From Romanomermis culicivorax (taxonomy: Eukaryota; Nematoda; Enoplea; Mermithida; Mermithidae), in contig CAWUHX010000427.1 of the NCBI GenBank assembly GCA_963922205.1, forward strand, positions 121,312 through 185,311: 64,000 bases of DNA, read 5' to 3'. How positions within the stretch are numbered: position 1 is the first letter of the stretch; the number at the start of each line of letters is the position of its first letter. The position numbers and the translations under genes are program-made. Below are positions 7,671-62,564 of this stretch, piece by piece. The notes under the pieces were generated by a model, which saw nothing but the letters and a program-made list of their open reading frames with translations, was not told where the DNA came from and did no database searches.

Positions 7671-7843
7671 AGGTAAATGCGTTGCCATCGTAACCATCGC
7701 CAAACACTGTTCGAAAAATAATGCTCGACCGGGATTCGAACCCGGGTCTCTGTGACTATAGTGCAGTGTTCTTCCGATTGAACTACCAAGCCAGTGTTGC
7801 GATAGTTACGAAGGGGTGATGTATGGCCGTGTGACACGTGACA
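7671..7843 (-). repeat. tRNA-headed repeat, copy 2
   Basis: This is the second copy of the unit at 7404-7574, in the same orientation, with about ten differences by eye. The T-stem here has CCCGG/CCGGG pairing, where copy 1 has a G-T pair. It ends with the same CGTGTGACACGTGACA motif. Confidence 0.6.
7722..7792 (-). other. tRNA-like sequence, copy 2
   Basis: It has the same arms as copy 1. The T-arm is perfectly paired and the anticodon stem carries the same two mismatches. Mismatches shared by both copies show that they existed before the duplication, which argues for a repeat rather than two tRNA genes. Confidence 0.55.
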
Positions 7844-28642: not shown

Positions 28643-29825
28643 ATCAAATTCAACGAAGTCTTGAATAAAATCACGAATTTAATATCAACCTTTTCTAGAT
28701 ATTGTATTTTTCCACATGCGAAAAATATTTTAAACGCGTTTTTCCCTCAAAAGTACTCATAATCGTTATTTATAAGCGTTTTGAAACACATTTTCACATA
28801 ATGCTTTTACTGGCATCGAAAATTTTCGGAATCGAAGAAAAAATTGAAATTTTAAAATTCGTCTTAACTTTTTTATACACAATGAAATAAAATTTCATTA
28901 GAGTTTTATGCTTTTAAAGCCGTTCTGCGATCGGAAAAATAAACGTTACAAGAGAAAAAAAAGAAATTCATAAATTACGAAAAAGAACAATAGTAAATAT
29001 ACAAGCTCATGGAAGTGTTGTAAACACGCCATTTCGAAAGAATTGCTGAGAGTTTCTGAGCCGCAGAGCTGGATTTTATTCTATAATTTTTCGGAATGAT
29101 CTTTTCAGATAATTTTTTGGGAAAAATAATTTCGAAAAAGGCGATAAATATGGGGGTTCGCAATGGAAAAGATGAACTTTGATGCATTTCATGGAGTCAC
29201 TTCATAAACATGCAGACGAATTTAAATTGATAAAGTGATTTCAGGACATTTCAAGTTTAACTTGAAGTTTTCAAACATTTAGTTTTTTAAATTTTATAAT
29301 GATAAAGACATGTTTTTGCACAGATAATTTGAACCTGATGCTTATTGAATTTTTTTGTACAATGAATTTTTTTGTACAAATATTTTTTGGCCGATTTTTA
29401 TACATGTACATATATACATGTACGAGAAAAACACTAGTCGGAAGTAACATTTTGAACAGTATTTTTTAACACGTATCAACTGATCGAATATCTAAATAAT
29501 TACATACATTCCACAGCGTGTTACATGCCTACTCTTCGATATTCTTCAAATAAATTTAAATTTGGATTGAAAAAAAGAAACCATTTGATTCATGATTTTC
29601 AAAGCAAAAAAGCTTGAAATGAACACAACAATGTTACTACTAAAATAACAATGATACATAATGCAAATGATATCCAACAAATTAAGCAGTTTGTTAACAA
29701 TTGTGTATAACTGGTACCAATACTGGCGCCGGTCCTTGGGCACCGGCATCTGCACAGACACTGGTAAAAAGTTGGCACTGACACATCCCTACTATGTATG
29801 TATTATGCTTATAATATTCGAAGTA
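28643..29825. other. Upstream of VARS; no gene, part of an outer repeat
   Basis: The VARS promoter should lie here, but no clear TATA or initiator is apparent. From about 29715 to 29790 the sequence is GC-richer with ACTGG/CACCGG words that recur at 32030-32090. The composite hAT element was therefore inserted into another repeat. Confidence 0.4.
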
Positions 29826-35035: not shown

Positions 35036-35220
35036 GCGCGGATTTAGGGGGTCCCACTGAAGCTTTTGAAATACGATATTTTTCTGTATACCTATAGGCA
35101 AGTTTGAAAAATTTTTGAATTTTTTTTGGAAAAATACTTAATTTTCAGTCATACTTTGGCCCGCCTCACGAAAAAATTTCTGGATCCGCCACTGTGTCAA
35201 GGGGCATTTGACAATAAAAT

Positions 35221-35829
35221 TGTTGGGGATGTGCTTACGGCAGTAGCAATCCCACATCTATGCAAAATTGGTGAATCGACAAAGTTACGATTCCACCAAA
35301 AAGGAAGAAAACATTCATTCGTGTTTACCTTCGCAATTTTGGTGTGTTTTGGGCGAGTCGCGTCCGTGATAAAATGGTATTGTATTGTTTCGCCTAGTAA
35401 AGGCAAATGTCGACAGCCCCACACCAGATTTGCATATTAGTAATATAATAATTATTTATTATTTACATTATTATTATTTCTCGCGCATTGAGCGGTTGGA
35501 GGGAGTCGTCTTACACGGGAGCCAAGCCAAGGTGAAGCCCCAGTCCTTTTGGATATTATTGAAGTGAGTTCTGTGTATTTGTGTGAACCTTTAGGAGGCA
35601 TCTGGGGAGACCCTGAGTGCCCTTCGATTGCAAGAGTTAGACTTTCCAGTTACTTATTAGTGACTGAAGGTTGTGTTTATTTCTGCTTAAGGACTGTTGC
35701 ACTGTGTTTAGTTGATTACTAATAGGAAGCTCCTTTGAGTGACCTACAGTAGTAGATTGAGTACAAGCCAATAGGACTTGAGTCATATTGCTGACATCTT
35801 CGGATCTAAGCAGAGATATAAACATAACA
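35221..35829 (+). repeat. 5' LTR
   Basis: It runs from TGTTGGGGATGTGC to AACATAACA, 609 bp, and matches 49524-50129. It includes a 3-base duplication-like difference near 35415 (CATATTAG against CATAG). Confidence 0.93.
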
Positions 35830-35831
35830 AG

Positions 35832-35847
35832 TGGTGGCTTCTGACAC
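35832..35847 (+). other. Candidate primer-binding site
   Basis: TGGTGGCTTCTGACAC begins 2 bases after the 5' LTR and starts with TGG, the complement of a tRNA CCA end. The primer tRNA is not identified. Confidence 0.5.
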
Positions 35848-35923
35848 TTGCAATACGGAAGAGCGCAGAGTCACTCGAGGTGTCACAAAACCTAAAGGTT
35901 TTTACAAAGACTTAGGGCTCAAA

Positions 35924-38900
35924 ATGTCCAAAAATGCTGGTGATTTAGCCTCTGGTACGACTTTACCGAGGACTCCGCCTGGTGTAAGGCATGATGAGTC
36001 GGATAAATCTTTCCCACTGCCCGTGGTATCTAATACTACGAGCAAGCAGAAAGACTCCGACTCAAGTGCCATAAGCCAGCGGGCTGAGGTAAAATTGGAC
36101 CCAGTAAGCGCTCCCACTTCCGTAGCGCCTATAATGGCCACTAATAATATCAATAATATGGCCACGGCAAAGGAACTATTGACTGCCGAAGATAGAGACA
36201 CTCAATTATTAGCGCCTATTGATAGAAGGCCGAAATTGGCCGAGGATCATATGGATCTGTTCGATCAATTTAGAGAGGAACGTTTTCGACGACCTCGACA
36301 ACGATTCGATACGTATCATCGTGAATACGTAAACGAAAATTTGGATAATATTCGGGACGATTACCGTCATGATTCATTGGACGACTTACGATTCGAAATG
36401 AGTCAAAAGGACGACGAGATTCGACGACTAAACGTCAAAATTGATAAAATGGCCGATTCGATGGTCGGAGTCCAAGGACTATTGGAAAGATTCGTCCTGG
36501 ATCAAAAGGAAAGGGATATCCGAGTGAGTATGACTACAGACAGACCATTGCAAACTCAGGATATGTGTAGAACTTTGCCAACGACGTCTGCAACCTGTAT
36601 TGCCAATGACCAAAGGTTACGGCAGATGGAAGCAGATGAGTCAGAGCAAAAGTTCACAGTCAAACCTGCTGTGAAATCAAAGGTTTCTACGGAAAAACGG
36701 GTAACTGAACCGCTTGCTGTTCGAGAACAAGCAAGTGATATAGTTGCTCAATTTTTCCAAGAGGCTGATGAGGAAGCAGCAGGTAGTCATAAGGAAAGCA
36801 AACATACTACGTCGAAGCACAAACGATCCAAAAAGTCCACACGAGGAAATTCATCAGATTCTGATGACTCCTCAGTGGATGGATTGGAGCCTACTGTGTC
36901 AGATATAGTGAAGGCTGTAAAGCCAAAGCTACTCCTCGATGACATGACTGAGACACAAGTTCTCAGCTTCCTAAATGATTTAGAGGCAGAATTTACTTCA
37001 GAAACTACTGATAAAATGAAGCTGGCTGCCTTACGAGCGCTTTCTAAGGGTGTACCGAAAGCTACTGCCAAAAGGTTCAAAAGTTACGAAAAAGCCCGAA
37101 GAAAGTCGCTCAAAGTGCAAGCTCCAGATTCAAATGTCGGTATGCAAACAAGGGAGCTGATGAACATAAAGCAGGAATTTGATGAAGCTCCAGTGAAATT
37201 CCTCAAGAGAATTAGTGTGCTAGTAGATAGATTATATCCTAATAAGACCGAAGAGTTCAGAGATCGTTTCATAATTGATACCTTTTTATATAAAGCATCT
37301 GAAGAGTATCAGATGGAGTTGCTAGATCAAAGGGAAAAGTATGAAACATGGCATGATCTAGCAGAGGATGTGCACAAGATTGATAAGCGGAACACAGCTG
37401 CTTATAAAAAGAGAGGAACTGCGGAGTCTCCAATTGTGATAAATGAGGTAACGATGGGTGAAGGGCAAGCTGAAGTGGCTTATGTCGGTAGAAATAAATT
37501 TGGCAATGCCCCACAAAGGCAGTTTCAAAATAAAGCTATGCGAGAGCAAGCAAGGAGAGAGATGCAAGCCCCGATCCTGGTGTCAGAAAAGAAGGATTCC
37601 GATACTTCTATAGAAGAGAATAACTCACAGGGGACTCAAATGGCTACTACTCCCCAAAAGGGAAAAGAGCCTGAGGAACCTAGCAGTGATTCTGTTCTAG
37701 CAAAGTTATCACAGGAGATTGCGAAGTTGGCTCAGTGTTATCAGGAGATAAGCCAAAAAACTGATGCTAAATTGAATGAAATTTCTGCCAAAGTTAATAA
37801 GGGCAAACCCCAAAAACCTGGTGGAAACGAGTTCAGGAAACCATATTGTCGATACCATAGAAATAATTCTCATGACACATCCGAATGTAAAACCCTTCAA
37901 TGGAAAAATGCACAAGGACGTAATTGGGATAATCAATATGGTGGAAACAGAGGTTTCAGGCAACAGTTTGGAGGCTTTAGAGGAGGATATGTTGGCGGGA
38001 GCAGTAGAGGTGCTCATGCCGTAGGTTATTATGGTGATACTATGGATTATGATACTTATCAACGATTCATGGATTACCAGAATAGATTGCGGAATGAGCA
38101 ACTCTATATGGCACCACAACTGCCAGCCCCTAGCCAACAGCTGATGATCACAGCTCCCCCTCAAGGTCAGGTTCAAATCAGTAACCCTAGCCCAAGTGTG
38201 CAAGCCATTTCCAGTAGTCAACCATCCACGTCCAGTCAGACAGAGTTGGGATCTGCTGGAAGTGTTAATAGCATTGCCACTACGGGTCAAGGTGTTAGTG
38301 AGATGAAATGGCCTGGAGTCTTGAAGTGTGCCATGATGAAAGAAGATTATTCAAAGGTTACGAAAGCGTTCAAGCATGGGATAATTCCTAATCAGGAGGA
38401 ACGATTAAGGTTTTCTAAGTTTCCTCGAACTCTCCCATTTCACATTAATGTGACCGTATGTAATACTAACACCAAGGCTCTAGTGGATACTGGTGCTCAG
38501 TGTTCGGTGATGTCTTCATGGTTTCTTAAGGAAGCTTTTGATGAAGAATATACCGGATATCCTGAGATACTAAAAGTCACTGTTGCTGATGGTGCAGTAG
38601 TACATGCACATGGTTACATACAATTCAAAATGCATTGTGAATTCGGAGTTTTCTTGGTGAAAGCCATAATCATTCCTAATGCGGAGGAAAATCTCATAAT
38701 TGGAACGGATTTCTTAGCACATCCGGATGTTGGAGCGATGATAGATTTTGGTAAAGGTATCATGAAACTTAATGGAGTTGAGAAAGCTATAAGTGTTGTA
38801 CCTAAAGATCACGCAAGTCATATACAAGCTATTGATTGTATAGGGGAAGCACCTATAGTACATTCAAGTCCTGAAGAGGATCAATACCCCAGGATCTGCC

Positions 38901-41005
38901 AATTAGGTATAGTGGTTCCAGTGGTATCATGTACGAAAGTATACGTACCACATGGAACTGAGGTGCTTATTAAGGCAAGATTATGGGAACGATCGTCTAA
39001 AACAGATCTCAATTGTTTGGTCATAGATGGAAATAAAGAGGAAAAGAAATTCAGAGTTGATAGCATACTGGTTGATGGTAAACGGGAAGACTTTGTTCTG
39101 ATGATTTCGAATAATACGGGTTCCGGATGCCAACTGCAACCTAATCAGGTTGTAGGCTACTGTGACTCAATATTACAAGAAAATTCAGGAGTATCAGACG
39201 TACAAAGTACGAGTTGTGGGATATTTAGTGTTGAAGATAATTTTAATGCCACTCCCAGAATGTCTGTGCATGATGCATTGGCATTTAGGGAAGCACTATA
39301 TAAAATGATCTCCAAGGCTGATATCAATGAGGAATTAAAGGAAACAGCTGTAGCAAAACTGTCTAAGTACAGGGATGTTTTCAGCTTACCCAATGATCCC
39401 TTAACTGCAACACCGTATCTTACGTGCAAAATTGATACTGGTAATGCAATGCCAGTGGCAAAACATTATTATAGAGCTCCCATTAACCAAAGATCAGGGA
39501 TTAGAGCTCAAGTCCAAGACATGTTAGATAAAGGAGTTATTGAACCCAGCCGGTCACCGTGGGCTGCTCCACTTTTCCTAGTTGGGAAAAAAGACGGTTC
39601 CACGAGACCAGTTGTGGATTTCAGAGGTATAAATGAGGTTACTAAGGACGATAGGTACCCTATACCTAGAATGGATGATTATTTGGATTGTCTAGGTAAT
39701 GCCAAATTTTATACCACATTGGATCTAAAGTCTGCATATTGGCAAGTCCCACTTGAGGAGAGTAGCAAGGAGAAAACTGCATTTATATGTCAGGAAGGCC
39801 TACATCAGTTCAAAGTTATGCCTTTCGGACTTAAAAATGCACCTGCAGAGTTTCAGAGAATGATGGAGAGAGTGTTGCATGGTCTAGTCTGGAGAATCTG
39901 CCTGGTTTATATTGATGATATCATCGTGTTCTCCAAAACTTATGAAGAACATTTGGAGAATTTAGAGTTGGTCTTGCAAGCTCTTCGGAAAGCAAAGCTA
40001 ACACTTAAACCGGAGAAGTGCGAATTTCTTCCAAAAAGTGTTCATTTTCTTGGACACATACTGGACGAAAATGGAATCTCACCAGATCCGAAAAAAGTGA
40101 AGGCTATTAGGGAATTCGAATTTCCCAATAGCGTTAAGCGTATGCAACGATTTCTGGGGATACTGCAATGGTGTAAGAAGTTTATCCCAAACCTTGCAAA
40201 TCTTGCAGAACCGTTGTATAAGCTTACCGCTACGGGAAAGAAGAAGTTCCAAGCAACAGAGGAACATCGCCAAGCGTTTGAGAAACTGAAAAAAGCACTC
40301 ACCTCAGTGCCATTTCTACGGTATCCTGTTTTGGATGGAACTGCAGAGTTCATTCTCCAAACAGATGCCAGTGGAACCACACTGGGAGCAGTACTTTATC
40401 AGAAGACTCAAGATGACCAATGGGTAATAGCTTATAGCAGCCGAATCCTTAAGGAAGACGAGAGGAAGTGGTGTGCTACAGAGCGAGAATGCCTAGCGGT
40501 TGTCTATGGTCTTAAAGTTTACCGGCACTATTTGTTTGGGCAAAAAGTATTGATCAAGACTGATCATAATCCTCTTTTATCTATGAAAGTAAATACTCAA
40601 ACCAATGATAAATTGAAAAGATGGTATTCCATTATAAATCAATTTAATCATAGGTTGGAGTATGTGCCCGGTAGACAAAACACAATGGCTGATTTTCTAT
40701 CAAGGAAAGATGAACCCGAAGACGCTAAGGACAAAAACCCACCAAAATGGGAATATGTCTTCAAAATTCAATTTCGTAATTTCGGAACTCAAACCAATGA
40801 AATTGAAACCCAAATACAGGTACAACAATTTCAGAGGATGAGGGACGAAGAGGTTGAAAGTAGAGACGAAAAAATTGTCCCCAAGCAGACCAAGGAATTG
40901 ACGGATATCCAGGAATTGACGGTAACGAATGACAATATTGCACCAACTACCAAAGATGTATTGCAGAGCAGAAATGAAATGCAGACAGAAGCTTACGGTA
41001 GTTGA
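35924..41005 (+). CDS. Gag-Pro-RT-RNase H polyprotein of the gypsy element
   Basis: This is an open frame of 1693 residues. ATG 35924 was chosen because the frame upstream lacks ATG and overlaps the primer-binding site. Domains are a disordered acidic/basic N-terminus, a coiled coil (about 146-200), a capsid-like region (about 340-490), a Cys/His knuckle of form C-x3-H-x4-H-x4-C (near 642), an RG-rich stretch (near 680-705), and an aspartic protease with VDTGAQCS (Asp at about 855). RT follows with YIDD (about 1329), then RNase H with TDASG (Asp about 1482). No break is seen. Gag and pol share one frame, and integrase follows in another frame. Confidence 0.93.
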   Translation: MSKNAGDLASGTTLPRTPPGVRHDESDKSFPLPVVSNTTSKQKDSDSSAISQRAEVKLDPVSAPTSVAPIMATNNINNMATAKELLTAEDRDTQLLAPIDRRPKLAEDHMDLFDQFREERFRRPRQRFDTYHREYVNENLDNIRDDYRHDSLDDLRFEMSQKDDEIRRLNVKIDKMADSMVGVQGLLERFVLDQKERDIRVSMTTDRPLQTQDMCRTLPTTSATCIANDQRLRQMEADESEQKFTVKPAVKSKVSTEKRVTEPLAVREQASDIVAQFFQEADEEAAGSHKESKHTTSKHKRSKKSTRGNSSDSDDSSVDGLEPTVSDIVKAVKPKLLLDDMTETQVLSFLNDLEAEFTSETTDKMKLAALRALSKGVPKATAKRFKSYEKARRKSLKVQAPDSNVGMQTRELMNIKQEFDEAPVKFLKRISVLVDRLYPNKTEEFRDRFIIDTFLYKASEEYQMELLDQREKYETWHDLAEDVHKIDKRNTAAYKKRGTAESPIVINEVTMGEGQAEVAYVGRNKFGNAPQRQFQNKAMREQARREMQAPILVSEKKDSDTSIEENNSQGTQMATTPQKGKEPEEPSSDSVLAKLSQEIAKLAQCYQEISQKTDAKLNEISAKVNKGKPQKPGGNEFRKPYCRYHRNNSHDTSECKTLQWKNAQGRNWDNQYGGNRGFRQQFGGFRGGYVGGSSRGAHAVGYYGDTMDYDTYQRFMDYQNRLRNEQLYMAPQLPAPSQQLMITAPPQGQVQISNPSPSVQAISSSQPSTSSQTELGSAGSVNSIATTGQGVSEMKWPGVLKCAMMKEDYSKVTKAFKHGIIPNQEERLRFSKFPRTLPFHINVTVCNTNTKALVDTGAQCSVMSSWFLKEAFDEEYTGYPEILKVTVADGAVVHAHGYIQFKMHCEFGVFLVKAIIIPNAEENLIIGTDFLAHPDVGAMIDFGKGIMKLNGVEKAISVVPKDHASHIQAIDCIGEAPIVHSSPEEDQYPRICQLGIVVPVVSCTKVYVPHGTEVLIKARLWERSSKTDLNCLVIDGNKEEKKFRVDSILVDGKREDFVLMISNNTGSGCQLQPNQVVGYCDSILQENSGVSDVQSTSCGIFSVEDNFNATPRMSVHDALAFREALYKMISKADINEELKETAVAKLSKYRDVFSLPNDPLTATPYLTCKIDTGNAMPVAKHYYRAPINQRSGIRAQVQDMLDKGVIEPSRSPWAAPLFLVGKKDGSTRPVVDFRGINEVTKDDRYPIPRMDDYLDCLGNAKFYTTLDLKSAYWQVPLEESSKEKTAFICQEGLHQFKVMPFGLKNAPAEFQRMMERVLHGLVWRICLVYIDDIIVFSKTYEEHLENLELVLQALRKAKLTLKPEKCEFLPKSVHFLGHILDENGISPDPKKVKAIREFEFPNSVKRMQRFLGILQWCKKFIPNLANLAEPLYKLTATGKKKFQATEEHRQAFEKLKKALTSVPFLRYPVLDGTAEFILQTDASGTTLGAVLYQKTQDDQWVIAYSSRILKEDERKWCATERECLAVVYGLKVYRHYLFGQKVLIKTDHNPLLSMKVNTQTNDKLKRWYSIINQFNHRLEYVPGRQNTMADFLSRKDEPEDAKDKNPPKWEYVFKIQFRNFGTQTNEIETQIQVQQFQRMRDEEVESRDEKIVPKQTKELTDIQELTVTNDNIAPTTKDVLQSRNEMQTEAYGS

Positions 41006-42404
41006 TGCAGTCACAACTAGAAGACAAGCAAAACTTCAGGATCAAAGTGCACAAAATCAAGAACAGGGTACATCTGTACAAAATGGTCCTGAAAACATTG
41101 CTTGGCTTTTTCCCAATAGAGAGAAAGAGTTTGAAGAGGTGAAGGAAGGAGAAAGTGAACAGAAGGATGATGATAAGATCAATTATCCAATTGATCTAAA
41201 TGTTATCGCTCAATTGCAAAAAGAAGACGCTAATCTTACCCTAATTTGGGAAAGATTAGGGGTCAAAAGCACTACGAAGTATCATAGTGGATTCTATGAG
41301 GATAACGGAGTTCTTTATAGGGAAACTGAGGGACGTGGCCATGATCAGATCGTGGTCCCGAATTCCCTCAGAGACAGCATACTTCACCAATATCACGGAG
41401 CCGTTATAATGACACACCAAGGGTTCAAAAGAACTCTGGGTATTGTCAAACAGCGGTTCTGGTGGCCTGGCATTGAAAAAGATGTCAGAAATTGGTTGAA
41501 GTTTTGCCCTGTCTGCCAAGTGGCTACTCCCGGTAAAAGCTCCATATCCCCATTGATACCCATTATACTGGAGGGTCCCTTGGATATTGTGTCTGTGGAC
41601 ATAGTAGGGATTGCTCCCTTGAGGGAACGTCGCCCATATGTCATTGTCTTTCAGGATTATTTCACTAAATGGGTTGAAGCTATATTGATTCCTGATCAGA
41701 CGGCTGAAACCATAGTGGATGCATTCTTAGAGCATGTGATATTTAGGCACGGTACCCCAAGAAAACTTCTTAGTGATAACGGATCTGGATTTAATTCAGA
41801 TCTTATGAAAGCAGTCTGTAAACTGTTAGAGTGCAGAAAAATTTTCACAACAGCATACCACCCACAGGGTAATGGTATGGTTGAGAGATTTAACCAAACT
41901 CTAATAAAGCAGCTGCGAAAAGTTGCAATTGAGGATAACAATAAATGGCCAAGGTACCTCAGTGCAGTGGTATTTGCATATAATGCCACACCCCAGGCAG
42001 CAACAAAATGCTCGCCATTTTCACTGCTGCGGGGGCATGAAGCTAATTTTGGTATCAATTTCACTGCTGCCCTTAGAATAGTCATGCCTAATGACTATGA
42101 GGCTTACAAGTATGTTTTGGCTACCCATCTTACAAATTTGTACGAAAGTATTGCCGAAAACATACAAAAAGCCGCTAAGGACAGCAAGAAATATTTTGAT
42201 AACAAAATTAAAACTTCTGGTTTTAAAAATCAAGATTGGGTTCTGTTGAAAGTAGACAGACAGAAAAAATTGGGGTTACCTTGGCAAGGACCATATATCA
42301 TCATCGATGACAAAAGATTGAAAGACAATGTGCTCACAATAGCGCATTGGAATAACCCGCTTAAAAAGCAGGTCGTATCGGCAAGTAGGCTAAAACACTT
42401 TTGA
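40929..42404 (+). CDS. Integrase of the gypsy element (separate frame)
   Basis: This is a 491-codon frame overlapping the end of gag-pol by 77 bases, in the +1 frame relative to it. It has the HHCC zinc domain (HQYHGAV ... CPVCQ), and a complete D,D-E core: Asp in SVDIVG, Asp in LLSDNGSGF, Glu in GMVERFN. A C-terminal domain ends in SASRLKHF. All catalytic residues are present. Expression may need a frameshift in the overlap, or the frame may have been split by one indel. An AATAAA signal lies downstream near 42565. Confidence 0.9.
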   Translation: MTILHQLPKMYCRAEMKCRQKLTVVDAVTTRRQAKLQDQSAQNQEQGTSVQNGPENIAWLFPNREKEFEEVKEGESEQKDDDKINYPIDLNVIAQLQKEDANLTLIWERLGVKSTTKYHSGFYEDNGVLYRETEGRGHDQIVVPNSLRDSILHQYHGAVIMTHQGFKRTLGIVKQRFWWPGIEKDVRNWLKFCPVCQVATPGKSSISPLIPIILEGPLDIVSVDIVGIAPLRERRPYVIVFQDYFTKWVEAILIPDQTAETIVDAFLEHVIFRHGTPRKLLSDNGSGFNSDLMKAVCKLLECRKIFTTAYHPQGNGMVERFNQTLIKQLRKVAIEDNNKWPRYLSAVVFAYNATPQAATKCSPFSLLRGHEANFGINFTAALRIVMPNDYEAYKYVLATHLTNLYESIAENIQKAAKDSKKYFDNKIKTSGFKNQDWVLLKVDRQKKLGLPWQGPYIIIDDKRLKDNVLTIAHWNNPLKKQVVSASRLKHF

Positions 42405-42945
42405 TACCAAGGTACCAGATGGTCTCGACACGAAATGTCCCAGGTCTTCCGAGATACTCCAGTTAACGCAACTGGAAATCCCGCCGAGACCGAAGATCAC
42501 CCGGTCGTTATTTCTGTGTCTAAAAATTTTTAGCGGAAAATGCCGTATACGTGTATTTTATGTGAATAAAATTTTTATTTATTGTGTTATTTAACCGATT
42601 TCTATTCGTTTAATACCTTTTAAATTTTGGGTAGCGAAGGGTCAAATTTTCAGAATAATATTGTTAATTTGTACACCCGACGCTAAAATTTTTGAATTAC
42701 ATTTTGGGAGGTTTACGACTAATTTTCATTTTCAATTTCAAAAGTCGTGTTTTTCTTGTGCTCCGCGTCGCACAAAATTTTCGGAACAAATTTTTTCGTC
42801 CAGCCCAAGGACCGGATAAAATTATTTTCGGTAATTTCGTATATTGTATTGATATTGAAGTAACGATAAATGTTCTTTAACATTTTGTTTACTTTAGAAG
42901 ATACAACGCGGAATTTTAGAAAAAATTTTTTAAAAAATTTTGCAA

Positions 42946-43057
42946 ATGTCGAAATTAGGCCTTGCGCCTTTCACGCGAAATTATTGCGCACACGCCGACC
43001 ACGTTAAGGCGGGCCAACCGCGAGGTCGCCAAAACAATCGTTATTTTTTGACCGACG
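42946..43057 (+). CDS. Cargo gene exon 1
   Basis: It starts at ATG 42946 and encodes 37 codons rich in Arg, Asn and His (TRNYCAHADHV). The donor G|GTAAGTTT is strong. The joined Asp codon continues the exon 2 frame exactly. It is inferred from splice signals and phase, not from homology. Confidence 0.65.
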
Positions 43058-43412
43058 GTAAGTTTTTATTTAATTATCTCTTGGTATGTGGGACGAATTC
43101 GCGCATTTAGGTGTCTTAGGAATGATTTCTTCACGCTCAATTTTCTGAATGGGCCAACCAAGGGGAAAACGAGTTCGAAGAAAAGTTTCTAAAAATGTTA
43201 GGATAGGTGAAAAGAAAAAACCTAATGGATTTACGGCCCTAAAAAGCCAAAGTCTAATGGTTTTTACCTTGGATCCGATTCTGAAGCATTTATTTTTGGT
43301 TTTATTAAAGCCCCTGGTTTACTAAATTTATTTCTTGGATTAATTAAAATCTTAATTGGTTATTTATTCACTATTTAATTTTGGTACCGAGGCGTGAAGT
43401 TATTGCTAGGGT

Positions 43413-44288
43413 CAGGGCCGTAACCAGGATTTTCCCAAGCAGACCATATAAAATGTGCCTAAACTAAAAAAGTGAGGGCGCGCAACGCCCGAGCTTCAGG
43501 CTGGGGGGTTTGGGGTGGCGCGCCTAAGCGCCCCCCAACAGGGTCTGAGGCAGAGCCCCAGAAACTTTGAAAAATACGCGCTTTATATGCTGAAGAAACA
43601 TTAAAAATTAATGTTTTTGGACCACGTTTTTGTTATAATTTGCTGAAAAATGTGGCATAATCCAGCTTAAAACTACAATTATCTCATATTGAAAGATTTC
43701 CACAAGAATATTTACATTTCAGTAAATCTAACCCAAAATTAAACCGAGATATTCAACATCCAAATATACATTTGTCTTATTTAAACACCTCCATTCAATT
43801 CAATAACGCTTATTGTCAAAATTTATTCTCACTCATTCTACGCAACTAAATGATGAACTCTAAACGACGATTTTGCTACTTAGCAAACAAATCTATAACT
43901 TCTTCAACATCCAGGTTCACGTTTCGATTTATGTACAATTGCGCTAAGCCGTTCAAGCGATCTTCACCCATTGACGCTCGCAAGTAATTTTTCAGGTAGC
44001 GCAAGTTTGAAAACAATCGTTCGAAAACAATTATCGACACGATTTTTTTTTAAAAATACATCTAGACTAGTTTGATTTCGCTTCAGACTAGAATGATTGC
44101 GCTTCATTCTGAATTGAATACACTTTAAAAACTGTTAGGAAAATGAGTGGTGAACAATATTATTAAATAAAATAGTGATTCTATACACTATTGTTAACAC
44201 ACAAAACAATTGACAAAATTGAAAAATTTATTCAATCGCCAAGGGGTGGGTAATTACCCTCCCTACCACCCCCTTAAATACGGTCTTG
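43413..44288 (-). mobile_element. hAT deletion derivative inside the cargo-gene intron
   Basis: It starts CAGGGCCGTAACCAGG and ends with AATACGGTCTTG. The 8-bp duplication GCTAGGGT is perfect at 43405-43412 and 44289-44296. The element is 876 bp and retains only a transposase C-terminus (43876-44040). Its position in the intron leaves the cargo reading frame unaffected if splicing is kept. Confidence 0.85.
43876..44040 (-). pseudogene. hAT transposase C-terminal fragment
   Basis: It encodes FERLFSNLRYLKNYLR, GEDRLNGLAQL and VDVEEVIDLFAK-like residues (here LDVEEVIDLFAK), followed by TAG at 43878-43876. This is the hATC dimerisation region of ZMYM/repressor-type hAT proteins. The rest of the transposase is deleted. 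Confidence 0.8.
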
Positions 44289-44562
44289 GCTAGGGTAAGT
44301 GGTAAATTGACGGCGGCCGACGTCGAGAAGCGAAAAGTGGTGCAGATGTGAGGTTCCTGAAAAATTGGTGTAGCATTTGCGTTAACCACTGGGCCTGCTT
44401 ACTTTATGACTTTGACACCTAACCTCACTTATTAATTTATTTTTCCCCACGCTAAATCTTTTTCCTAATTTGGTGCCGGTCAAAATTGATTATTTATTTG
44501 GTGGTGGTGGCCTAATGCCTGATTTATAAAGGGTCAAGGGGCAAATTCTTTTTGATTTTTAG

Positions 44563-45330
44563 ACTACAACATCAAGCGTCTGGTCCGCGTCGGAGAAATC
44601 GAACAATGGTTCGCCGGCGTGATGGGTTATTGGCCGCAGCGACCAATGGAACCCGAACGGGTTCACGGCGGCAACGTCGAACCGATCCTGAAGCAATTGG
44701 CCACAAGCCAGTTTCGGGGGCTAGGCGTTGTCGGATTCGACGTCGAAAAGGTCAAGAAGACCGAGGTATGTATAATACCTTATAAGGTAGCGATCCAGAA
44801 CCCGGAAGGGAAAGAGTTCGCTAGGCTGGTGTCATTTGCACACATAGATGGTTCCAGCTTTGTGATCGACCTTACAACATTGAAGCCGCAGGAATGGGAT
44901 CTTTTGATTTCATTCCTGGCATCAGTGGATCGTTTCTTGGTCGGTTTCAAAGTTGTGGATGATCTGGTTGCAATTTTGAACGTCTACGGATCCGGGTCAG
45001 GGGCCTCGGCTCATGACAAGACGAAAATTATACAGGCCCGTAAGGATTTGGAAAATATTGGGACTGTGAAATTTGCGTCAGATTGATGACAGGGCCCATG
45101 GCCAATCATGCTCGTGATTTAGGATTGTGTCCTGAAAACCTTGGGTTAAAAGGACTTTTCACCGAATTTTACTTGGCTGATGTCGGCAAATACCAATGCG
45201 ACTTCGGTGACAAAAAGATTCGAGAAAAGTTCTTGGCCCCCAAGATTCAAGACACAGAAATTGTGTATGCTGGCCTGGACGCCTATTATTCAATTGCCGT
45301 ATTTTTGGGGTTCTTTCACTACGGGTTTTG
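44563..45330 (+). pseudogene. DEDDy 3'-5' exonuclease domain of the cargo gene
   Basis: The exo I motif is GFDVEKV (Asp codon 44739-44741). Exo II is GFKVVDDLVAIL (Asp 44956-44961). Exo III is YAGLDAYYS (Tyr 45266, Asp 45278). The order, spacing and the Y-x3-D of exo III match the RNase D/WRN family. A one-base slip near 45075-45085 separates exo II from exo III, so this copy cannot make the domain unless the slip is bypassed. The likely activity is 3'-end trimming of RNA or DNA, which is inference. Confidence 0.75.
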
Positions 45331-45967
45331 TGGTGAATTGAGTGGGGTTACGGCAACATACCCCCATGATATTGTATCGCCGGCCCAAGTGAAGACCTTG
45401 GCCTTCCGCTTTTATACGGTGTACTCTCAAGACCTAACGGGGTTCGAGGATCGAAACTTCGTAGATGAGAAGGACATCGTAAAGAGGCAGTTGTTCAAGG
45501 TCTACCATATGATGCAGCAAGAGGTAATGGCCAGGTGGGCTACACAATTTCATAATGACTTGCCAGAATATTTGTGTCCTGCGGATATTAAAAATCCCGC
45601 TAAAGCTACGGACCACACTTTACTGTCTGGGGTTTATCCCAAGGCGCTAAAAGCTGGTCCAAGCAAAAAGAAAACAAATCAGTGGGAAGACGTAAGTGAT
45701 CCAGAGGACATGGATACAATGGAACAACAGGTCAATAGGACAAACGAGGTGATAAACCGACTGCATACAGAAATGTTGCAAGGGGTTTCATTTTTCAAAT
45801 TGACGGATCCTGTAGATGTTGTATGGTATATCACAGCCGGTCTTGCCATGAATAAGACTCCTCAACAGGACTGGTCGAAGCAGCTTCAATTGTTTCAACT
45901 TGGAAGGGACTGCTAGGAACCAGTGGAAATCGACACCGGTATGGCTTAGTACGACAGGGATCACTGG

Positions 45968-46711
45968 ATGGCGGACTTGAGGAATTACGAGCATGTCATG
46001 GACTCAACAAAGTTCCCTGCGTTGGAAAAGGCATGCAACCTAATTCCTCTACCATTCTTTGTTTTCTGGCCTCATAGCCGTGCCGAGTACGATTACATAC
46101 TGAGGGAATTATTGAATTATAATTTCCTCAAATCCTACTCGAAGGAGGATGCAGAGTTAATAAAGAAGATGGCATGGAAGACCGATGACAGGGTTTTACA
46201 GAATTACGACATAGTAGCATCCTTACGGCCAATGGAACCTGAACATGCTGTAAAAGGCAAAAGGGTTACGACCTGGCAAAATAGGTTTGGTTTTATGCCT
46301 ATTCGGTTGCGCTTGCGCAACAGAATAGGTTCTCCAATTTCAACGGAAAAAGCAAAGGACAATATTACCCATAACAAGGATTATTGGGCCAACTGCTTTT
46401 TCTACGTCAGATTCTACTATGCGGAATTCGGTAGTAAAACCCCCTCACTGCGATATGGCCTATCACCAGACACGCCTACTCTTCAGACGGGTCAGATCAG
46501 ATGTATACTGGCTGATTATCCGATGTATACTATTGAATTTCCTGAAAAGTGTATTCACCGGAGGCCTCTGCCGTCGGAACTACCTATGGTTACCTATTCA
46601 TACGGTAATCAAACCAAACAATCCGATTTCAGGACGAAATCTGATATACTAGACCCTGATAATGAACCCACAGTTCAAATGGGTCGAGTGGACGAGGACG
46701 TCACGGAATAG
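45968..46711 (+). CDS. Cargo gene middle region (open piece)
   Basis: This open piece of 247 codons is in frame with the flanking pieces. It has aromatic and Pro-rich stretches (LPFFVFWPHSR) and an acidic end (RVDEDVTE), and I do not recognise the fold. It lies between stops at 45947 and 46709. Confidence 0.6.
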   Translation: MADLRNYEHVMDSTKFPALEKACNLIPLPFFVFWPHSRAEYDYILRELLNYNFLKSYSKEDAELIKKMAWKTDDRVLQNYDIVASLRPMEPEHAVKGKRVTTWQNRFGFMPIRLRLRNRIGSPISTEKAKDNITHNKDYWANCFFYVRFYYAEFGSKTPSLRYGLSPDTPTLQTGQIRCILADYPMYTIEFPEKCIHRRPLPSELPMVTYSYGNQTKQSDFRTKSDILDPDNEPTVQMGRVDEDVTE

Positions 46712-47056
46712 GAAAGTGAGGATGAGGATAATTCCGCACTCCTGGGAGAGGAAAGCTGCAAGGAGGTTGACGATGAAGACGCATTATTGTATATTTCGAT
46801 CGCCGACCCCCAAGTAGCCGAATCTGCGATGACAGCATCCTCTGTCACGCAGTTGCAACCGCAACCACAAGTTGTGACGCAGCTGCAGACGGAAATGCTG
46901 CCACCACCGCCTGGCTTACCTACGCCACAAGTGATACAAACATCTATGGATGCAAGTCAGTACTTGTCTAGTGTAGAGAGTCAAGCGCAATCGGAAGAAA
47001 TTCCGATTGCCCAGGATGAGCAGAACGTGTAAGAGCAAGCTTACATTAGCGAGTAC
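46712..47056 (+). CDS. Cargo gene acidic and Gln/Pro-rich segment
   Basis: It continues in the same frame after TAG 46709 with an acidic run (ESEDEDNS), then Gln/Pro-rich sequence (QLQPQPQVV, LPPPPGLPTP). It meets TAA at 47030. It looks disordered. Confidence 0.5.
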
Positions 47057-48619
47057 ATGGATGCTGAAGGTGTAAAGCAAAAGGAGGAAGAACAGACAGC
47101 AGGGACACCTAGCCATACTGTGGTGGAAACACCACAAGAGCTAGCGGCCCGGCTGGCTGAAGAGGATAAGGAAATTCAAGTATTAGCCTTGACCTGGGAT
47201 AAAGAAGGTGTTCCCGGATACTATACTGCTGAGGCAATAAAAAATATGAAAATAAAAGGTTTAAATGATAGGCAAATTTTCGTTAACTTGAAAAAGAAAC
47301 GAAAAACAAAAGCCCGTCAGGAGAAGAAAAAGGTAGAAAAGGCAATTGCGCAGCCTGCAAAGGTTACGCAGCCGAAACCTGCCAAAACTTCTGCTCCGGC
47401 TTCAGCAACGGTATCCGTGACCACCGTATCTTCAACTACTCCTGTGTCGCAGACTGTCTCTACAGGTACTTTATCGATGGCAACGAGTCAGTCCACGCAA
47501 TTTGTGTCGCAGGCTACGGACACCTCTGCTTCCGGACGGCGTCAGCCCAAGGTGCAGGGAGCTCCTAGCAAGCCACAGGTTGCAGGACCAAAAGTTCAAA
47601 TCTTTACACCAGGAAAGATAAAGCCGTTAACTCTGGTTACTGTTGACCCAAATCAACAAACACCAGAAATGATGGTGGAGTTATTCCGGGATGTATTGTT
47701 GGATTTTTGGCAAGTCACCAAAGATAAAAGTAGAGCCAGAGGTCCAATTTCTTTTGCTACACCAGAATTGGCTAATTATTTCTGCGACGAGCAGTTTGAA
47801 GATCCAGAGATCTGGCTGATGGTCAATAAAGCGGTCAGGACTATATACAAACTGTATCAGCCACAGTTTGATGTCCAAGGTGGATTTTTATACGACTCGC
47901 GAAATATTCCAGAGCCACTATGGGATAGGATCATTCGTGAAATTGTCCTTGAATGGCTCACGGAATATCGAGTGAGTGTCGTATTTGCAGCTGTCAGGTA
48001 TTTGTGTATGATGATATTCCTTATGCTTGACTATGCACCACTTACGGCTGAGCAGATCGGTAAACGATCGGTCTCAGCCAAAGTGTTTGCAAACATCATG
48101 CTGTTACAGGAATATCGGAGTGCCACTGCTTCGGATGTTTTTAAGACTGCCTATTGCTTGGTGATGTATAATTACAGTCAACAAGCGGCGGAGATGGATG
48201 TCAAAAGGTCAGGTAGCCCAAGTCCTCCGACTACTGTTAAATTTAGCAAAGTTCAGAATAATGCGGGACAGACCTTTCGGGCACCCGGACCCCCAAGCAG
48301 TCAAACTGGTGGTCAAGGAGCCACGGTTGGTATAGCCAACCAGGTCTTCGCTGGCCCCAGTTCTGGCACCGGGCAAGCCTCCAGAACCATTCCGAAACAA
48401 CAGCAACCTATACAGCATATACAGGGTGCTAGGGGAGCTCGCGGAGGACGGGGAAGGGGTGCCCAACCAGGCCAGTTTCATTTCAACAATCCGAACAGGG
48501 GCAGAGCTGGTTACGTTGGTGGCCGAGGTATATACCGAGGACAACACCCTGGTGGTGCATTCCGAGGTCGCGGAGGTCATCAACAAGGCCAGCAGCAAGG
48601 CGGCGGGCAGCAACAATAA
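47057..48619 (+). CDS. Cargo gene C-terminal piece with RGG tail
   Basis: This is a 520-codon open piece. It has a Lys/Arg-rich helix (KKKRKTKARQEKKK), a Ser/Thr/Pro linker, and a helical region (about 47640-48200) containing EIVLEWLTEYRVS and LMLDYAPLTAEQI. The tail has repeated RG and GG (GARGGRGRG, GGRGIYRG, FRGRGG) ending in Gln/Gly. RGG tails bind RNA, and Gag of the same element has a similar stretch near 37930-38010. The folded region matches nothing I can name. Confidence 0.65.
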   Translation: MDAEGVKQKEEEQTAGTPSHTVVETPQELAARLAEEDKEIQVLALTWDKEGVPGYYTAEAIKNMKIKGLNDRQIFVNLKKKRKTKARQEKKKVEKAIAQPAKVTQPKPAKTSAPASATVSVTTVSSTTPVSQTVSTGTLSMATSQSTQFVSQATDTSASGRRQPKVQGAPSKPQVAGPKVQIFTPGKIKPLTLVTVDPNQQTPEMMVELFRDVLLDFWQVTKDKSRARGPISFATPELANYFCDEQFEDPEIWLMVNKAVRTIYKLYQPQFDVQGGFLYDSRNIPEPLWDRIIREIVLEWLTEYRVSVVFAAVRYLCMMIFLMLDYAPLTAEQIGKRSVSAKVFANIMLLQEYRSATASDVFKTAYCLVMYNYSQQAAEMDVKRSGSPSPPTTVKFSKVQNNAGQTFRAPGPPSSQTGGQGATVGIANQVFAGPSSGTGQASRTIPKQQQPIQHIQGARGARGGRGRGAQPGQFHFNNPNRGRAGYVGGRGIYRGQHPGGAFRGRGGHQQGQQQGGGQQQ

Positions 48620-49523
48620 TTTTTAGCCGCCAAAATTTTGGTCAAAAATCCTCCATTCTTGACTTCATTTCATTTATTCAAAAAACACAAAAAAAACACA
48701 AAAACATAAAAAATTACAAAAATCCAAAAACATTATAAAACATAAAATACAAAAATATTATTTAAACTTTTGGTTGTGTTGTTGCCTTTCAAAAAATCTC
48801 ATTTTTGGCCAAGCTCATCACTTGAGTCCACCATTTTGATTTAATATTTCTTTCACTTATTTTGCATTTGTTATTATTTTTCTCGTATTTTAATCTCGTC
48901 ATTTTTGCCTCGTATTTTTCTTGTCGTTCTTTCGGTGCCTTGTAAATATTTTGTCATTTGTGCCTCGTATTTTAAAATTTTTTGCTCAATATTTTTTTGC
49001 CCTACTAGTTTTGTAAATACTTGTTCGTCATATCGTATTTTAAATTTTTTTGTACAAAAAATTGGCGACGAACCGAAAGGGGCGATGGAGCGGACGAAAG
49101 TAGCCGATTACTGCAAGGATTGGGACGCTGCTGCCAAAGACACTCCACATCACTCAATGGGACGAAGCGATCGACTGTGGAGGAAGGTACCTAGGAGCCT
49201 CAAGGCACACTGGCGAAGCCAGGGAAAAGTCAGGCCGATGCAGAGTCGTCAATCCGTCAGATGCTGGATCAGTGATCGATCATGCCGCAGCATCTCAGTG
49301 GACAGACCTAGGTAACCTTGTAAAAAGACTTGACGTTGGAGGTGGTCTTGACCCGTACACCCTTCGGGGTCAGGTCAGGACGATTATGACCCGTACACCC
49401 TTCGGGGTCGGATCATAATCCTTTTAAGTTGGGATCCAGTAGTAGGTCACACCGTAAAAGGTAAAAGTCCTGCTCATGGTTTCCTTCTTCACCTCCCGTT
49501 GGTCAGTTTCAAGGCCCGAGGGA
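48620..49523. other. 3' untranslated region of the gypsy element
   Basis: It is A/C- then T-rich up to 49060, then more GC-rich. Two identical 22-base hairpin units lie at 49350-49371 and 49388-49409 (GACCCGTACAC...GGGGTC). The purine-rich GAGGGA just before the 3' LTR is a weak polypurine tract. Confidence 0.55.
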
Positions 49524-50129
49524 TGTTGGGGATGTGCTTACAGCAGTAGCAATCCCACATCTATGCAAAATTGGTGAATCGACAAAGTTACGATTCCACC
49601 AAAAAGGAAGAAAACATTCATTCGTGTTTACCTTCGCAATTTTGGTGTGTTTTGGGCGAGTCGCGTCCGTGATAAAATGGTATTGTATTGTTTCGCCTAG
49701 TAAAGGCAAACGTCGACAGCCCCACACCAGATTTGCATAGTAATATAATAATTATTTATTATTTACATTATTATTATTTCTCGCGCATTGAGCGGTTGGA
49801 GGGAGTCGTCTTACACGGGAGCCAAGCCAAGGTGAAGCCCCAGTCCTTTTGGATATTATTGAAGTGAGTTCTGTGTATTTGTGTGAACCTTTAGGAGGCA
49901 TCTGGGGAGACCCTGAGTGCCCTTCGATTGCAAGAGTTAGAGTTTCCAGTTACTTATTAGTGACTGAAGGTTGTGTTTATTTCTGCTTAAGGACTGTTGC
50001 ACTGTGTTTAGTTGATTACTAATAGGAAGCTCCTTTGAGTGACCTACAGTAGTCGATTGAGTACAAGCCAATAGGACTTGAGTCATATTGCTGACATCTT
50101 CGGATCTAAGCAGAGATATAAACATAACA
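49524..50129 (+). repeat. 3' LTR
   Basis: This is the 606-bp partner of 35221-35829 with four substitutions and a 3-base gap, ending AACATAACA before the AAAT duplication. Confidence 0.93.
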
Positions 50130-50133
50130 AAAT

Positions 50134-50880: not shown

Positions 50881-50938
50881 GAGCCTAAGTCTAAGCCTTA
50901 GCCTATGCCTAAGAATAAGCCTGAGCCTAAGCCCCGCC
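50881..50938. repeat. Degenerate GCCTAA-rich stretch
   Basis: It has GAGCCTAAGTCTAAGCC, TATGCCTAAGAATAAGCC and similar words. It is inverted and related to 34940-35035, with TGTTATTGGAATGG in the neighbouring bases on the minus strand. Confidence 0.5.
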
Positions 50939-51928
50939 ACGTTAATTCCATTCCAATAACAAACTCTGTCTCACATTCGAAGCTCTTACAAAAACTAAAA
51001 GGACATAAAATTGATAAATTCCCAATGAATTGGATTTGTGACTTTCTTACAAATAGAACTCAATGTGTAAAACTAAGTAATACCATTTCTGCTCCAACTC
51101 CAATAATTAGTGGCGTTCCTCAAGGAAGTGTGTTAGGTCCAACATTGTTGATGATATTTATAAATGATCTGAGTGATATAATTAAAAGCGATCTCTATCT
51201 ATTTGCAGATGATGCTAAAATTTTTAATGATGCATGTAATACAGTACTAATCAAGGAAGATCTAAACAGTTTCTATAAATGGTCTGAGGAATGGCAACTT
51301 AGTATGTCATTGTTCAAATGGGCAGTTTTACATTTGGGGAAAAATAATCCATCAAATCAGCACAAATTGGTGACGTGATCTTGATGCCATCACTGAAATG
51401 AAAAATCTTGGTGTTTATGTTGACGAAAAACTCAGTTTTGTTCCGCACTGTGATTATATGATCAAGAAGGCTCCTAGGGTATCGAATCTAATTTTTAAAT
51501 GTTTCAACTCAAATATAAATGAATTAAAAATCAGGGCATTCAAAACTTATGTTCGCTCAATCCTTGAGTATGGTAGTCCTATTTGGAGTCCTTCCCTAAT
51601 GGGTGAAATACAAAGGGTAGAGAAAGTTCAGAGGTGGTTCACAAAACGATTATATGGCTTTAACTCTAGGAAATATCAAGAATGATTGGAGTCTGCCAGT
51701 CTGCATTCTCTTGAATTGAGGAGAACTATAACTGATTTATGGTATGTTTATTCTATAATCTTTAATGGCATTTTGGACTCAAATAATTTTTTTTGTATAT
51801 GTACAGTAATTTTAATTATCGTATTAACAACCCATATAAATTATATAAAGACAAAATTTCGTACACAATTACTCGAAAACGATTTTTGTAATAGATATAT
51901 TGATACGTCATGTTACATCCCCTGTTAA
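50939..51928 (+). pseudogene. Jockey/CR1-like LINE RT fragment, 5'-truncated
   Basis: It encodes GVPQGSVLGPTLLMIFINDL and YLFADDAKIF (the catalytic FADD), then MKNLGVYVDEKLSF, YVRSILEYGSPIWSP and a C-terminal tail. Breaks are a stop and frame change near 51376-51398 and a TGA at 51683-51685. The endonuclease and the first RT blocks are absent. It runs into a pogo terminus at 51952. Confidence 0.82.
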
Positions 51929-60702: not shown

Positions 60703-62564
60703 TTATACTGGATAGGCTTGTCTTATAGCTTCGATCAAGCGACAAAATGGATGTTCAGGATTCAATCCTCTCCACCAAAACTCAGCCAAATGACCCGGAA
60801 GTAAAGCAAACGAAGTGCCACGATAAAGTCGCAAAATTATGGTTTTAGCTGCCCCCCAGGAACTTTCTATTCTTTGCGTATTGCAACCAGTGAGTGGGTC
60901 AACGAAAAAATGCTGATGATTGACCGTTTCATGAATATAACCGAGATTCGCTAAATTGTTGTACGCCCGCCATTCGTCACTTCTAATTGTTGTTCCTGGT
61001 GCCACGTGTTGCTGAATGAACGGTATCAATGTGGCGGCATTTCTATGTTGAACAACAAAGAACCTGCGATCCAATAAATTATTTGCGCGCTTGTGAACCA
61101 TGCCAAATACCCAAGGGCCTCTTTCACCATTTCCATAATTGCGCCTGGCTGGTCCCACCTGATTTCCACGTAGCATTCGCCCATGCATGTTGGCAGCTGG
61201 CTCACGCCGACCAGCAAAAAAACTTTCATCTATTTCAACTATTTCGTTTGGACCTCCCATTGGCGGTGCTTGATTCATGGCGTCCAATAGCAATTCACGT
61301 ATATAATGATGCCAGTCGGTGAGAGCATGGTCATTCCTCATGCCAATAAAATCTCCCAACATTTCATGACATTGCTTCGTGCCAATTTTTTTAGCCCAAA
61401 GCCAATGTATCATGAGAACTTTATCGGTCGATAATTTGACACTTGGTCGATTTATTGCGTCCATTCGAGCAAACCAAGTTCGATTACCTTGACCGCCAAA
61501 TACTGCTCCTCCTTTTTTTAATGAAATCATGGATTTGCATTTTGTACAACGGGCCATATGTGACCGTCCTGAAATTAGTAAATATTCTGATATTGTATTA
61601 GTCAGTCAAAGGCAATGCAATCTTGGTTTGGCTTGACCAAGACATTTGAATGAAATAAAGGGGCATCATGGCATACAAACAAGGTAAGAGCAACTTTCGA
61701 GTCCATAAACTTATTGGGAAATATTCCCTGTTTCTGTTTGTTCTCTTTTTTTTACATTCTCATTTTCTTCTTTAATATTCTATTTTGTTACTCAGTGAAT
61801 GAAACAGAAAGAGTGCAGTGATGCAGTCAGATGTAAGAATGGAAAAAATAAGAAACTGATAAATGTGAAAAAAACAAAGATGCATATAAAAACTGCAAAT
61901 GAAAAATACAAAAAATAAAACATGAATTGACAAAAATAAAAAAATAAAGAATGAGGGGAAAAAGTATGCAAGTAGAAAATGGACAATAATATAGATAACA
62001 AAGATATTGAACTTAGTAATATGTGAAATAAAATAAAATATTGAATAAAAAACGAAAGAAAAAATGCAATAAAAATATAGAAAAATGATTAGGTGGTGCA
62101 CAGAAAATGCAGCAGAAGAAAATATGTAAATGATAATCAGGCACGAAATCTGATGAACGGGAATTATGTTTCTTAATGCATGTAGTCTGTATAGCCAATG
62201 GACAGTCCATTATTTAGGCAATGATGGGATGGTTGAAATATTCAATAGCAAAATTAACGATGATGGAGTTTTTGGCTGCATAGTATATGTTATGCGGTTT
62301 CTTCCATGAACAGGAGTTGGCCAGATAGTCAAAAGACCACATGCATGCAAAGATTATGTAACCAAAAAAAAATTTACCTCGAATAACCGTTCTGTATAAT
62401 TCCCCATTACAATTTGGTTTGGGACACATGGGTCTGTTGCCCAGCTGACCAACTCCTGGAATATTTGGCAAAAGTCCATTGGTAATTGCGAATTCATTTG
62501 CCGATTGTTCATTTGCGCAAATTTGAGTTATTTGAAAAATATTGGGATCGGCTTGTAAGGCCAT
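60703..62564 (-). CDS. Merlin (ISXO2-like) transposase, two exons, apparently intact
   Basis: Exon 1 is 62378-62564 (ATG at 62564; donor CGAG|GTAAAT) and exon 2 is 60703-61568 (acceptor TTTCAG|GACGG). The total is 1053 nt, 350 residues. A zinc-ribbon pair is formed by CPKPNC in exon 1 and CTKC at the exon 2 start. The DDE triad is Asp in VEIDESFF, Asp in IRSDEWRAY, Glu in QRIESSWG, with no stop between. The intron (61569-62377) is A-rich on the plus strand. ISXO2 catalytic domains are the Merlin hallmark. A longer in-frame start at 62648 is possible. Confidence 0.85.

Follow-up and report, generated by a model that had tools for sequence, protein, structure and literature searches.

A multi-copy Ty3/gypsy-like element of Romanomermis culicivorax with a probable DEDDy exonuclease gene in the env position

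We analysed a stretch of 64,000 nucleotides from the mermithid nematode Romanomermis culicivorax (hereafter the window), which carries at positions 35221-50129 a 14.9-kb Ty3/gypsy-like element on the plus strand. Related elements sometimes carry an env gene between integrase and the 3′ long terminal repeat (LTR); here this space is occupied by a single gene (42946-48619), referred to below as the cargo gene. As far as can be judged from sequence, the element very probably belongs to a multi-copy family of Ty3/gypsy type in which a third gene takes the env position and encodes, after splicing, a protein of ~1,370 residues that contains a DEDDy exonuclease. The LTRs and the gag-pol part are arranged as follows.

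35221..35829, plus strand: 5′ LTR, 609 bp, TG..CA, AAAT target duplication at 35217-35220 directly before it
35832..35849, plus strand: primer-binding-like site, TGGTGGCTTCTGAC.., 2 bases past the 5′ LTR
35828..41005, plus strand: gag-protease-reverse transcriptase (RT)-RNase H open frame, 1,725 amino acids (aa), gag with a C-x2-H-x4-H-x4-C motif and an RGG stretch
40926..42404, plus strand: integrase frame, H2C2 zinc finger and rve core
49524..50129, plus strand: 3′ LTR, 606 bp, TG..CA, AAAT at 50130-50133 directly after it

The TG..CA ends and the 4-bp target duplication are those of Ty3/gypsy LTRs, and the two LTRs differ by 4 substitutions and one 3-bp indel. Both LTRs and both copies of AAAT lie outside the cargo gene, as a first-pass annotation of this DNA had stated. 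Pfam recovered protease (E-value 6.7e-7), RT (2.8e-39), RNase H (1.5e-30), integrase zinc finger (3e-19) and integrase core (5e-13) in the order protease-RT-RNase H-integrase, which is that of Ty3/gypsy elements. The integrase lies in a different frame from gag-protease-RT-RNase H; the switch, at 40926-41005 between RNase H and integrase, is at an uncommon location and may reflect a mutation or a programmed shift.

A second element family is represented by the C69 relative, an element at 281543-296118 of contig C69, with LTRs of 644 and 621 bp unlike those of the window element and a GACA duplication. Its RT is 79% and its integrase 63-75% identical to those of the window element, and a start TGGTGGCTT is common to the primer-binding-like site of the window element and the post-LTR position of the C69 relative. 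The same gene stands there in the same place: successive pieces are 44, 33, 41 and 28% identical to the window cargo, the corresponding motifs read FDVE, EDL and YAALD, and conservation extends to the C-terminal domain. The C69 cargo also has broken frames. The parts of the cargo gene in the window are listed below.

42946..43057, plus strand: cargo exon 1, ATG, 37 codons and one base
43058..44562, plus strand: cargo intron 1, GTAAGT..TTTAG, acceptor AG at 44561-44562
43413..44288, no strand assigned: nested hAT-like fragment, 876 bp, inside the cargo intron, ends CAGGGCCGTA / CAAGACCGTA, 8-bp duplication GCTAGGGT
44563..45039, plus strand: first part of cargo exon 2, putative DEDDy motif I FDVE and motif II VDDLVAIL
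45010..45110, plus strand: frame-break stretch of the window copy, mimicking a 53-nt GT-AG intron at 45040-45092
45093..45330, plus strand: remainder of the putative exonuclease domain, motif III YAGLD
45044..48619, plus strand: long cargo frame to the stop codon, interrupted by four stops
47627..48208, plus strand: C-terminal domain, predicted helical (predicted local distance difference test (pLDDT) 55, predicted template modelling score (pTM) 0.58), with one very hydrophobic helix, matched in the C69 relative
48420..48619, plus strand: RGG/GRG-rich tail, seen in the sequence, stop codon at 48617-48619

The donor at 43058 is the sole GTRAG within 42946-43400, and exon 1 joins 44563 in frame. 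Exon 1 itself found no support in codon-usage scoring. It is 42% identical over 31 aa to a counterpart in the C69 relative (4.7e-5), with donor and acceptor at matching positions. Since an element with other LTRs thus has an exon 1 counterpart and shares the splice position, the first intron (43058-44562) is, on this comparison, real. The spliced frame proposed in the first-pass annotation therefore stands for its first intron and falls for its second splice at 45040-45092: the GT-AG of this 53-nt stretch formally joins the frames, yet the C69 relative has coding sequence here, and within 45010-45110 none of the 19 other copies examined has the length of the window copy, so that the feature is a private frameshift and not an intron. 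Within the first intron, the minus strand of the nested fragment at 43413-44288 presumably resembles the C-terminus of a hAT transposase, a likeness judged by eye.

The cargo frame of the window has in-frame stops at 45914 (TAG), 45947 (TAG), 46709 (TAG) and 47030 (TAA). Judged by these four stops and the frameshift, the window copy is broken and does not encode the full protein. Divergence of the LTRs would lead one to expect 0.5 stops versus the four seen (P 0.002, or P 0.03 at the upper divergence bound), so some of them may predate the insertion in the window. An alternative genetic code for TAG and TAA was rejected, neither codon occurring inside the 1,725-aa frame. Similarly, an intron around 45914-45947 was discarded: the coding signal is neutral there but strong around the later stops, and several sister copies have a single 1,356-aa frame. 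A Gag origin of the C-terminal domain was also dismissed, the best blastp match of the cargo frame versus the gag-pol frame having an E-value of 0.73.

DEDDy enzymes carry motif I D-x-E, motif II D and motif III Y-x3-D. In the cargo, FDVE, VDDL and YAGLD occur in this order, and an RGG tail runs up to the stop codon, in agreement with the first-pass annotation. A profile built from seven solved DEDDy enzymes aligned with the cargo over 125 columns at 10.8 bits, a score reached by none of 50,000 shuffles; among 351 frames of at least 60 aa, taken from the window and from a locus of E. coli, RNase D alone outscored it. With a 14-sequence profile, made of the same seven enzymes and seven family B genes of the R. 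culicivorax genome (see below), the score rose to 26.7 bits with motifs I-III in register, and the best of 5,000 shuffles reached 9.0. Searching the cargo pieces by tblastn against loci positive for the DEDDy family PF01612 produced matches in 6 of the 18 loci searched (best 6.6e-12). The domain is strongly divergent: left-out members scored 57-186 bits on the solved-enzyme profile versus 3-13 bits for the cargo, and the window cargo misses the PF01612 cut-off that the homologous family C genes pass. A motif pattern matched the cargo, four of five bacterial members and 7 of 300,000 shuffles; this test is weaker and partly post hoc, a narrower first pattern having matched all five bacterial members and missed the cargo.

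Several results weigh against an exonuclease. The window cargo frames had no meaningful match in Pfam or NCBIfam, and neither had the joined exonuclease domain in Pfam, PHROGs or PDB sequences. The profile scores were obtained with two open pieces joined over the frame break of the window copy, that is, over the supposed intron. A profile of five bacterial DEDDy enzymes missed the cargo, as did hhalign. Single queries and smaller profiles performed poorly: WRN by itself scored 0.3 bits, a value that 97 of 2,000 shuffles reached, EXD2 by itself was equalled by 10 of 2,000 shuffles and WRN with EXD2 by 2 of 2,000, and the family B profile alone gave 4.7 bits (6 of 5,000 shuffles as high). The single-sequence structure model of exon 2 was poor (pLDDT 40), with no structural match; single-sequence models of the C-terminal domain were likewise poor and matched no structure. 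From the profile scores beyond those of shuffles and the matches to PF01612-positive group C genes, we nonetheless conclude that the N-terminal part of the cargo is, by sequence, a divergent DEDDy-type 3′-5′ exonuclease. Together with the Pfam domain order, the scores of 10.8 and 26.7 bits uphold, with corrections, the earlier description of a gypsy element with a DEDDy gene in the env position.

We then looked at sister copies. The piece 45044-45913 has at least 135 scored matches, the window included, among 2,866 first-look candidates. Among these 135, an open frame of 1,356 aa is present in 14 copies and one of 1,355 aa or more in 17; thus intact copies exist. Many listed copies contain stops. 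Nineteen other copies, chosen by hand among entries that are stop-free in this piece and have 90-98% DNA identity, were examined further. Within the 1.2 kb fetched upstream of each, 18 of the 19 carry pol, 93-98% identical and in two cases at a shifted distance. The catalytic residues are kept in nearly all: D-x-E, the motif II D and the motif III Y each in 18 of 19, and the motif III D in 19 of 19, one copy having lost motifs I and II. Because the same pol accompanies 18 of the 19 copies and the C69 relative has the cargo in the same place behind other LTRs, the cargo gene is, by its sequence context, part of the element and moves with it, as had been supposed. The alternative of an ordinary host gene apart from the element was checked, and in the copies looked at the gene is accompanied by the element. 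At C104:307996-319823 and C8:1942463-1962040, cargo copies of the same strand are clustered at distances of 5-13 kb; their spacing, below one element length (~14 kb), points to tandem or recombined elements.

The mean ratio of nonsynonymous to synonymous polymorphism (pN/pS) was 0.197 (codon bootstrap 0.147-0.264) over 290 codons that include motif III, in 190 pairs from 20 copies with the window. The 155 exon 2 codons that contain motifs I and II gave 0.275, with the stops of three pieces passed over. Compared within the 12 elements whose RT/RNase H could be aligned, pN/pS was 0.160 for the cargo versus 0.136 for RT/RNase H. On these values the exonuclease stretch is under purifying selection near that on RT. 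A point against this conclusion is that the copies were hand-picked from entries stop-free in the piece; such a choice may lower pN/pS somewhat, but would hardly produce a fivefold per-site excess of synonymous changes. Constraint on the cargo implies a benefit to the element, which, from sequence, seems to need its exonuclease gene.

The genome searched (359 Mb, 595 contigs) has 80 PF01612 matches, all above the cut-off and the window cargo not included. For 17 hand-picked matches, at least 10 kb of surrounding sequence was fetched. Of these 17, 12 have an integrase upstream of the gene and on its strand (L010, L012, L013, L014, L015, L017, L018, L019, L021, L022, L025 and L026); L023 has upstream RT only, and pol was not found within the fetched stretch at L016, L020, L024 and L027. 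At L015, L019, L025 and L026 the gene is surrounded by LTR-like direct repeats that share 96.5-97.5% identity and measure at least 275-440 bp, and other repeats are carried by L016 and L020. In a tree, group B, with full-length frames of ~610 aa, and group C were each supported at 100/99, and group C joined the C69 relative of the window cargo at 91/83; the split of element genes versus solved cellular enzymes reached 76/53 only, and the tree carries a long-branch warning. The six group C loci matched by tblastn have an integrase upstream in four cases. Thus, from the placement of group B on the one hand and of group C with the cargo gene on the other, at least two distinct types of DEDDy gene are located downstream of integrase in the R. 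culicivorax genome. Group B genes (L002-L010, L015, L017, L019 and L021-L026) are multi-copy and mostly behind integrase. Among the group B loci compared, exonucleases are 64-94% and integrases 55-85% identical, values that do not clearly indicate recent swapping.

DEDDy genes in LTR elements have been known from bdelloid rotifers since 2017: Juno1, Juno2, Vesta2 and Vesta5 are LTR retrotransposons with a DEDDy third open reading frame (ORF3) (Rodriguez, Kenefick and Arkhipova 2017, PMC5408684). In the open-licence literature searched, this was the one primary report on such genes in LTR elements that we recognised. The first-pass annotation named such exonucleases from Athena/Terminon; a restriction to these elements is not supported, since Juno and Vesta are gypsy-like and carry their DEDDy ORF3 after pol (PMC5408684). 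As they are described in that paper, Juno and Vesta share with the window element a retrovirus-like pol, TG..CA LTRs and a DEDDy-type gene between pol/integrase and the 3′ LTR; in both cases the same kind of gene occurs across unrelated LTR lineages of one genome (PMC5408684). The comparison is with this published description, and several differences appear in it. A dUTPase lies between protease and RT in Juno, Vesta and TelKA (PMC5408684), whereas the 1,725-aa frame of the window element gave no Pfam dUTPase match at E 0.1 or better. The Juno/Vesta motif is given as DEED (PMC5408684), the cargo here having D-E-D-D. Copy number also sets the window element apart, with at least 135 scored matches to a single cargo piece. 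The paper gives no significant departure from neutrality for bdelloid ORF3s of the env- and GDSL-like types (PMC5408684), in contrast to the pN/pS of ~0.2 of the cargo. Selection, copy number, a long spliced multi-domain protein and the missing dUTPase thus set the window element apart from Juno/Vesta; in the open-licence literature searched we found no prior report of such selection, copy number or long spliced multi-domain form.

Among other retroelements, Terminon/Athena of rotifers similarly carry DEDDy 3′-exonucleases as extra genes, but they have a Penelope-like RT, are telomeric, reach up to 40 kb and are not LTR elements (PMC6431247, PMC5408684). Burro of planarians is likewise a large gypsy-like element with extra domains; these include BIR, ankyrin and BCL2-like domains and lie in a huge ORF1, and the description of Burro in that paper names no DEDDy (PMC6431247). 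A DnaQ-like 3′-5′ exonuclease is named among the accessory domains of LTR elements (PMC6338049). With the cellular enzymes WRN, EXD2, MUT-7 and RNase D (PF01612), the cargo shares the order and residues of motifs I-III and a profile match, but unlike them it is very divergent and fused to ~1,000 further residues.

The predicted protein would run from the divergent DEDDy domain through a conserved middle, an acidic low-complexity linker and a predicted helical domain to the RGG tail, and intact copies would make an active exonuclease. As in retroviruses with env, splicing would yield the mRNA for this enzyme, whereas the packaged RNA would retain the intron, since the intron persists in DNA copies of two families despite transposition through RNA and copying of spliced RNA would have removed it; ORF3s of LTR retrotransposons are typically expressed via spliced messages (PMC5408684). 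A domain order that starts with the exonuclease and ends with the RGG tail hints at an enzyme tethered to RNA, where it might act on 3′ ends to the advantage of the element, the latter being the least sure step.

As to the substrate, the predicted exonuclease could remove or trim silencing small RNAs or other host-made RNA, a function that our analysis leaves quite possible if short of probable, and slightly likelier than processing of the element's own ends. This small preference comes from the precedent of viral DEDD-type exonucleases in immune evasion, the arenavirus nucleoprotein being one such enzyme. An exonuclease that aids the element's own replication, by trimming 3′ ends of RNA, tRNA primer or cDNA, is a possibility to be held with some reserve: most gypsy elements replicate without such an enzyme, as is generally known, while selection about equal to that on RT, the linkage to pol and the 3′-end processing of retrotransposon RNA proposed for bdelloid ORF3s (PMC5408684) are all in keeping with it. 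A catalytically dead DEDD fold that merely binds RNA, like those of EXD1 and Maelstrom named in PMC5408684, would fit the divergence of the domain and the lack of the S-N-W that precedes motif III in WRN and EXD2; it is improbable, since the window pieces, the C69 relative and almost every copy examined retain the five catalytic positions.

The same conservation, in at least 18 of 19 copies, would be needless for an incidental scaffold, and renders highly improbable a third gene that is still env-like and serves membrane passage. Such a gene would account for the location after integrase, the env position, and for the hydrophobic stretch of the C-terminal domain (mean hydropathy 2.29 over 19 residues), whose counterpart in the C69 relative is by eye hydrophobic too; however, the RGG tail comes after this stretch and no signal peptide or glycoprotein-like sequence is apparent, as judged by eye only. 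Capture of a host gene, once, as a passenger now decaying would explain the four stops and the frameshift of the window copy and the stops of many listed copies, but the 1,356-aa frame shared by 14 copies, the purifying selection and the presence of the gene in two LTR families, with more than half of its residues differing, largely contradict it and leave it hardly credible. Returning to host silencing RNAs as substrate, a fuller scenario would have the exonuclease gene supplant env and become an indispensable third gene that several element lineages acquired or exchanged; its product would act as a counter-defence enzyme that clears these RNAs from element RNA, with RT-like selection because copies without it get silenced; taken jointly, these propositions are doubtful.

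The 2017 study did not settle whether elements profit from DEDDy and other enzymatic ORF3s (PMC5408684). A DEDDy ORF3 kept in many recent copies, catalytic residues included, and under constraint near that on RT bears on this question. Most gypsy elements lack such a nuclease, whereas this one appears to depend on it, so that the usefulness of DEDDy ORF3s is now testable. If silencing RNAs are indeed the substrate, the gene would give an animal retrotransposon an enzymatic means of counter-defence.

Outside the element, RT-related frames of other retroelements (zf-RVT, RVT_1) lie near it at 2570-3877 and 50902-51375. Pieces of a class I tRNA synthetase gene, a eukaryotic host gene with long introns, extend over ~11 kb of the minus strand (17674-28678), a spread at odds with the short introns typical of bdelloid rotifers; tRNA-synt_1 was matched by Pfam in the two pieces tested, and we take the enzyme to be of the valyl type. 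An ISXO2-like (IS1595) transposase frame (E 3.2e-22) is found at 60706-61605 on the minus strand. Finally, two tRNA-like sequences at 7454-7525 and 7721-7792, called as tRNA-Tyr with an odd ATA anticodon, are situated 267 bp apart within a repeat and possibly represent a tRNA-derived repeat.

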